Origin: Desulfuromonadales bacterium
GTDB lineage: Bacteria; Desulfobacterota; Desulfuromonadia; Desulfuromonadales; BM103
Assembly (NCBI GenBank): GCA_027065695.1
Contig: JAMONP010000089.1
Location: 1 to 64,000, forward strand
DNA length: 64,000 nt
Reading direction: 5' to 3'
The position numbers and the translations under genes were made by a program. The notes beneath the pieces are model-generated. The model had not been told where the DNA came from. It saw nothing but the letters and a program-made list of their open reading frames with translations, and did not search any database. This document shows, piece by piece, positions 24,052 through 24,587 of the stretch (within the stretch, counting starts at the first letter, position 1; the number at the start of each line of letters is the position of its first letter).

Positions 24052-24080
24052 TTGACATAGTAAAAGCTTTTGTTTATTAA
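24052..24080 (+). promoter_or_regulatory. Sigma-70-type promoter of the riboswitch transcript
   Basis: TTGACA at 24052-24057 and TATTAA at 24075-24080 are separated by 17 bases. Transcription would start near 24087, directly ahead of the aptamer. Confidence 0.6.
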
Positions 24081-24088
24081 TAAGTTAT

Positions 24089-24205
24089 AGAGTGTGAAAG
24101 CCATCCCTATCGTAAGGTAGGCGCGGAAAGCTACGGATCCGCCCTCAAACACTTCCTCGGACAGCCGGGTTGCCATCAAAATTGGCCCCGGCTTTTCTTG
24201 TTCAG
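24089..24205 (+). promoter_or_regulatory. GEMM-I-type (cyclic dinucleotide) riboswitch with terminator
   Basis: The hallmarks of the GEMM-I aptamer are here: CCTATC-GTAA-GGTAGG is a 6-bp stem with a GNRA tetraloop, then GCGGAAAGCTACGG (the tetraloop receptor side), a second stem from GGATCCG to CGGACA, and the conserved GGACAGCCGGGTTGCC end. GEMM-I RNAs bind c-di-GMP, or cGAMP in the Geobacter-type variants. The 5' side before the first stem is less standard. The 3' strand GCCGGG-TTGCCA also pairs with TTGGCCCCGGC at 24182-24192, followed by TTTTCTTG, forming a terminator. Ligand binding should therefore block termination (an ON switch). It controls the small membrane protein gene at 24237. 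Confidence 0.8.
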
Positions 24206-24236
24206 GTCGGGGAAATGGAACGGGAAGGAGGTACCC

Positions 24237-24587
24237 ATGGACGTTTTTCTCTTAGGTGTCGTCAGTGCTTTTCTGCTTTTCACTGTGCTCCTGCCATTGA
24301 TTGGAGTTGTGCTTGGCTTGTTCTGTTACTATGTCCTGCCTTATGTTTTCGGTGGCTTGGTTTCACTCGCTCTGCTTCTGGTCGTTGGTGTGAAAGTCCT
24401 GCTTACCTGGTGGGTCTGGATTGTTGCTCTGCTGTGGGCTTCTGCTGTATTCATTGTGAAACTGAAGTTTCGCAAACTTGGCGAAGAGATTGAGCATTAC
24501 CAGGCTGCCCATGTAGCGTTGCTCTGTGGGGTGCCATACCGTCGCAAGCGGAACCAGCTGCGTGAAGCTATAGCAGGGGACTGTTAA
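24237..24587 (+). CDS. Small membrane protein under riboswitch control
   Basis: I do not recognise the family. The start at 24237 has an unusually strong AAGGAGG site. The 116-residue product has about three hydrophobic helices (roughly residues 3-27, 33-47 and 51-70), rich in Leu and Val with several Trp, followed by a charged cytoplasmic tail that includes KFRKLGEEIEHYQ and a Cys (LLCGVPYRRKR). Control by a cyclic dinucleotide riboswitch suggests a role in the surface, biofilm or extracellular electron transfer lifestyle. It is alone in its transcript. Confidence 0.75.
   Translation: MDVFLLGVVSAFLLFTVLLPLIGVVLGLFCYYVLPYVFGGLVSLALLLVVGVKVLLTWWVWIVALLWASAVFIVKLKFRKLGEEIEHYQAAHVALLCGVPYRRKRNQLREAIAGDC

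Follow-up and report, generated by a model that had tools for sequence, protein, structure and literature searches.

A GEMM-I riboswitch with an aptamer-overlapping terminator ahead of a gene for a predicted small membrane protein in a Desulfuromonadales genome

The leader and its gene

The window analyzed here is a 64,000-nucleotide stretch of a Desulfuromonadales genome, and within it a probable promoter, an aptamer, a terminator, and a ribosome-binding site follow one another between positions 24052 and 24231, ahead of the ATG at 24237 of a small gene (Table 1). This is the order given in the original prediction, which had been made from the letters of the sequence, and all four elements could be placed. 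The list of a consensus scan for such elements contains neither this promoter nor this terminator; the promoter is missing because the scan rule wants a −10 element ending in T.

Table 1. Features of the leader and the target gene (positions in the window)
Feature	Position	Strand	Remark
Probable sigma-70 promoter	24052–24080	+	TTGACA 24052–24057, 17-base spacer, TATTAA 24075–24080; read by eye, moderate confidence
GEMM-I (c-di-GMP-I) aptamer	24090–24177	+	RF01051 match, 44.4 bits; 18 pairs, nine leaders
Pocket base G20	24100	+	Ligand-selecting position; G in 9/9 leaders
First stem	24101–24126	+	C21–G46, C22–G45, then variant loop AUC (24103–24105) / CGC (24122–24124); consensus AAA / GAC
Pocket base A47	24127	+	Invariant across nine leaders
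Switching strand (aptamer 3′ strand)	24160–24175	+	24164–24175 doubles as terminator 5′ arm; holds C92 (24173)
Terminator 3′ arm and T-run	24183–24200	+	Arm 24183–24192; TTTTCTTG at 24193–24200
GTCGGGG	24206–24212	+	Possible partner of terminator 3′ arm after read-through; weak
Ribosome-binding site AAGGAGG	24225–24231	+	Read directly
Target gene, 116-residue predicted membrane protein	24237–24587	+	ATG 24237, stop 24585–24587; hydrophobic residues 1–79, polar tail with PYRRKRN

We scanned the whole window with the Rfam covariance models and obtained two matches over cut-off, one to a tRNA and one to RF01051 (GEMM-I, c-di-GMP-I) at the aptamer on the forward strand, with an E value of 2e-5 for the whole window and 44.4 bits against the gathering score of 35 bits, so the GEMM-I-type aptamer first proposed from the letters is recovered by its covariance model. 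On a 401-base stretch, the top model of the clan was RF03167 (c-di-GMP-I-GGC) with 51.6 bits. Membership in RF03167 calls for at least 59 bits, its cut-off, and a G at position 47, where the window aptamer has A; the "GGC" in the name probably gives the letters at positions 20, 47, and 92. Assignment to RF01051 agrees with both the score and the letters of the pocket, which are G at 24100, A at 24127, and C at 24173, the last of these lying five bases before the end of the match. We call them G20, A47, and C92 after the Vc2 structure, from which we also take the roles of the pocket bases, with A47 presumably stacking between the bases of the ligand. The first stem is capped by a GNRA loop (GUAA), and its internal loop reads AUC/CGC in place of the RF01051 consensus AAA/GAC, a loop that is usual in the family rather than an established requirement for membership. 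The variant region is made up of the closing pair and the internal loop of the lower first stem (24101–24105 / 24122–24126). The deviation that had been noticed in the sequence before the first stem is therefore real, and it sits less before the stem than inside its lower part.

The target gene stands alone as a single-gene target, and the hydrophobic part of its product would be long enough to cross a membrane two or three times. In the alignment of the target protein, which has ten rows with one duplicate record and one fragment among them, the invariant residues include P35, Y36, W61, W67, H87, A90, A91, G98, and P100. An AlphaFold2 model of the protein consists of long helices with good local and poor overall confidence (pLDDT 79, pTM 0.34), and a Foldseek search with this fold against the PDB gave no match at E values up to 10. 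The target profile gave no match among PDB sequences at E values up to 1, the NCBIfam search gave none, and the Pfam search gave only an insignificant match to Mntp (E 0.071, 13.3 bits vs a cut-off of 24.4). The description of a single target, a predicted membrane protein of 116 residues outside the known families, thus holds against Pfam, NCBIfam, and the PDB. We also considered an out-of-frame ORF (frame +2) that begins at an ATG 22 bases before the target ATG, and it is most likely due to chance: synonymous-codon shuffles reach its openness in 12 to 209 of 500 trials in seven homologues, and the frame closes immediately in an eighth (L013).

The riboswitch–gene pair among relatives

A search for homologues of the 116-residue protein, as the original prediction had suggested, covered 58 genomes and found matches in nine: the window's own, six others of its genus, and two from other genera of the same family. 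The same nine genomes were matched in the family set of 22 genomes, where weak matches within much longer open frames were also seen in G015, G018, and G004 (E 0.015 to 0.098). In a phylum sample of 395 genomes, an even sample that contains the window's genome as the one member of its genus, the target profile matched only the window's own genome and 0 of the 394 others, and we therefore regard the target as confined to one bacterial family within the sets searched.

A GEMM-I aptamer lies directly upstream of the target in each of the eight other genomes, and with the window this makes 9/9. The eight other leaders are L006–L009 and L011–L014; L010 is the second piece of a split gene in G008 and comes without upstream sequence. 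In all eight the top model is again RF03167, below its cut-off, and among the matches listed RF01051 is over its cut-off in at least seven of the eight, with the eighth (G001) reaching 48.3 bits with RF03167. Over the nine-leader alignment, 94.4% of cells are consistent with the 18 aptamer pairs, compared with 28–50% in slid controls, and in 7/9 leaders a single third-stem pair is non-standard. Four pairs are changed on both sides, a covariation score reached by 0 of 500 shuffles; since all four lie in the first stem and all come from the divergent leader of G006, they count as one event. The number of GEMM-I matches per genome, among the matches listed, is 38 in G001, 27 in G004, and 36 in G006, as against 4 in the window's genome, a wide spread within a single genus.

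The terminator hairpin is likewise found across the nine leaders. A hairpin on the same aptamer strand, with −17.1 to −17.8 kcal/mol, is present in 9/9, including that of G006, whose partner arm differs in sequence and which has a T-run. Three leaders have a broken or short T-run (L006, UUUGAUUGUC; L011, UUGUUUUAUU; L012, GUUUGUCGUU), and the terminator helix displays no two-sided covariation over the nine leaders.

The surroundings of the pair vary. A rubrerythrin-like gene upstream adjoins the target in G001, G004, G007, G008, and G009, and an ACT-domain gene lies downstream on the opposite strand in G001, G007, G008, and G009, whereas the 5 kb downstream that were covered in G004 (L047) lack it. 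A search with eight other window genes matched none of them at L011, L012, or L013 within flanks of about 0.9 to 1.5 kb per side, and the neighbors there differ from those in the window. We conclude that the riboswitch and the gene stay paired while their surroundings change. At one locus of a relative (L046:4060–4413), a gene for a PilZ-like protein (E 2.3e-4, 21.9 bits, narrowly under the Pfam cut-off of 22.5) separates the rubrerythrin gene from the riboswitch, and the window's ORF list has no such frame in the corresponding stretch. In relatives, a small minus-strand ORF lies between the target and the ACT gene at L045:5478–5846 and L046:5465–5962, the L046 copy having no Pfam match; it is absent from the window, where target and ACT gene are only 83 bases apart.

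The variant first stem follows the target gene. In a survey of 56 aptamers (four from the window's genome and 52 from relatives, chosen for high score rather than at random, with positions counted at a fixed distance from the ends of each match), the loop is AAA/GAC in 42, AAA/GGC in nine, an AAC variant in four, and AUC/CGC in one, that of the window. Among the leaders linked to the target, 8/9 have an AUC/YGC loop. A first pattern with one mismatch allowed was found in 9 of 136 genomes of the order, once in each, and a looser pattern matched exactly at 11 places in 277 genomes of the class, where a reversed control pattern matched at none. Eight of the 11 places precede the target gene, two (L092, L093) are without Rfam support, and one is a GEMM-I aptamer in G051 (L057, AUC/UGC) that precedes a different gene and scores 44.5 bits to RF03167, below its cut-off. 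As far as these patterns see, the AUC/YGC arrangement appears nearly confined to the target gene, and its retention across the target-linked leaders argues that it is kept by selection.

Switching direction and ligand

The aptamer and the terminator draw on the same strand. The 3′ strand of the aptamer is paired at 24160–24171, and the terminator pairs 24164–24169 with 24187–24192 and 24172–24175 with 24183–24186, giving a hairpin that spans 24164–24192 and is followed by the T-run TTTTCTTG. The two structures have bases 24164–24171 in common and the terminator also pairs C92, so the overlapping terminator claimed at the outset is present and the two structures are mutually exclusive. An arm complementary to the aptamer strand together with a T-run arose in 179 of 20,000 shuffles of 24175–24236, which were single-base shuffles that do not preserve dinucleotides. 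For the transcript 24086–24195, with an assumed start at 24086, the free fold has −37.0 kcal/mol and the fold with the aptamer enforced −23.3 kcal/mol, 13.7 worse; for a transcript ending at 24180, before the terminator arm is made, enforcing the aptamer costs 6.6 kcal/mol. In the absence of ligand, the terminator should prevail.

Folding energy as such was ruled out as support. Among 200 shuffles of the free RNA, 31 fold as well as the original (z −1.14), and in the absence of ligand the lowest-energy structure differs from the aptamer; the support for the riboswitch is the covariance model and the comparison among relatives. Three other structures were set aside or given little weight. A helix of 24090–24095 with the third-stem loop, seen in the free fold, is not kept in all leaders by a reading of the alignment by eye. 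An alternative hairpin GCGGA/UCCGC, also from the free fold, is made of invariant letters in only eight leaders and is missing in the ninth and in L057. A hairpin that the terminator arm might form with 24206–24212 after read-through is retained only as possible: a complement of 6–8 bp near this place occurs in 8/9 leaders and is missing in the divergent ninth, and single-sequence shuffles match it in 26 to 411 of 1000 trials. This partner lies beyond the T-run and therefore should not decide termination.

We consider it probable that the leader acts in cis on transcription as a GEMM-I ON riboswitch, with c-di-GMP as its most likely ligand, ahead of a predicted membrane-protein gene. With ligand absent, 24164–24175, C92 included, would be captured by the arm at 24183–24192, and the resulting intrinsic terminator would stop transcription before the gene. 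A cyclic dinucleotide, most likely c-di-GMP, would sit between A47, G20, and C92 and hold the 3′ strand in the aptamer so that the terminator could not form, and read-through would then allow the 116-residue protein to be translated from its good ribosome site. Since the aptamer 3′ strand, including C92, is the terminator arm, bound ligand should block termination, and the original claim that ligand turns expression on stands as a prediction, drawn from the exclusive structures and from a layout that matches the pilM switch. The opposite direction, in which the ligand-bound aptamer accompanies termination, has a precedent in Cd1 of Clostridioides difficile, an OFF switch with a homologous aptamer, but the Cd1 aptamer and terminator can coexist (PMC9262584), whereas here both need the same bases, and we hold an OFF switch to be extremely improbable. 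It also seems highly improbable that the leader is a constitutive attenuator whose aptamer has decayed and no longer senses ligand. This would fit the score of the window aptamer, the lowest of the four GEMM-I matches in its own genome, and the loss of the usual AAA/GAC loop; against it, AUC/YGC recurs in eight leaders from three genera with invariant pocket letters, which looks like selection, and the ninth leader retains its first stem through paired changes.

For the ON switch, the ligand is read from the pocket. G20, A47, and C92 are identical in 9/9 orthologous leaders, and among the 56 surveyed aptamers positions 20-47-92 are G-A-C in 42, A-A-C in 12, and G-A-U in two. The Gmet_0970 cGAMP riboswitch has A20 at the ligand-selecting position, and its A20G variant shifts selectivity from cGAMP to c-di-GMP (PMC6456294); in the crystallized cGAMP riboswitch the ligand-selecting position is A14. 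The A at position 20 that marks GEMM-Ib is replaced by G in all nine leaders, and the invariant pocket therefore predicts c-di-GMP rather than cGAMP. The choice between the two, left open originally, is in this way narrowed to c-di-GMP, and it stays a prediction because point changes in the lower first stem (lower P2) are reported to alter both affinity and selectivity (PMC9262584). That same finding lends something to the idea that in the cell the switch responds to cGAMP, alone or alongside c-di-GMP, with the altered lower stem compensating for G20. With 11 GGDEF matches, the window's genome likely supports c-di-GMP synthesis. Of the nine GGDEF domains read by a motif script, two (L065, G000:C67:60241–60702, and L066, G000:C98:8164–8634) carry serine in GHxxGSxxL together with a GGDEF motif, the Hypr signature, the other seven having aspartate in place of the serine. 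This signature marks cGAMP-making enzymes (PMC6456294), which suggests that this organism may make cGAMP as well and that the two dinucleotides may coexist in the cell. Two of the four GEMM-I riboswitches of the genome (L002, L003) are moreover of the A20, cGAMP-like type. Against cGAMP stand G20 in 9/9 leaders and the A20G conversion of a cGAMP riboswitch into a c-di-GMP one, and we judge a cGAMP or dual ligand unlikely. In a related and similarly doubtful proposal, the AUC/YGC stem with its inverted C21–G46 pair would define a naturally occurring subtype of GEMM-I that serves a single gene and tunes affinity or preference (for cGAMP, or for c-di-GMP and cGAMP) despite G20.

The other aptamers of the genome have features of their own. 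Those at L002:1501–1582 and L003:1501–1588 precede a YadA-head-repeat protein and a protein with a weak GEVED match, respectively. The aptamer at L001:1501–1583, like L090 in G008, combines G20 and A47 with U92, giving an uncommon pocket in which adenine might be paired; with the c-di-GMP-I-UAU model, L001 reaches 65.2, narrowly short of the cut-off of 65.9.

With c-di-GMP as the most likely ligand, we take the target to be a membrane protein that would be made at high c-di-GMP. The riboswitch is a conserved one of ordinary kind, its stem variation is conserved, and its target is an orphan restricted to one lineage. Such a riboswitch shows when a protein of an unknown family is wanted, and the conserved pair ties a small, predicted membrane protein to the way one bacterial family responds to cyclic dinucleotides, in an organism whose genome seems to provide for synthesis of c-di-GMP as well as cGAMP. 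In addition, the variant stem offers a natural test of which parts of GEMM-I, besides position 20, set affinity and selectivity.

Comparison with known systems

Among open-licence papers, a search for a c-di-GMP riboswitch in Desulfuromonas returned no match, a result that describes those papers and does not imply absence. The pilM riboswitch of Geobacter metallireducens has been studied as an ON switch: its aptamer and terminator exclude each other, and C75, which pairs with the ligand, is sequestered (PMC9262584). By our own reading, C75 corresponds to C92 here. The window switch resembles pilM in its aptamer fold, in its exclusive states, and in that a 3′ strand with the ligand-pairing C is the terminator arm; the ON direction comes from the literature for pilM and is predicted by analogy for the window. 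Unlike pilM, which senses cGAMP, belongs to GEMM-Ib, and serves a pilus operon, the window switch has a G20 pocket, a single orphan gene, and the internal loop AUC/CGC. RF01051 of the Vc2 type is like the window aptamer in that the latter scores over the curated cut-off, has G20, A47, and C92, and caps its first stem with a GNRA loop, and is unlike it in having AAA/GAC rather than AUC/CGC and G–C rather than C–G at pair 21–46. RF03167 is the top-scoring model of the clan, yet below its cut-off, and its consensus has G where the window RNA has A47.
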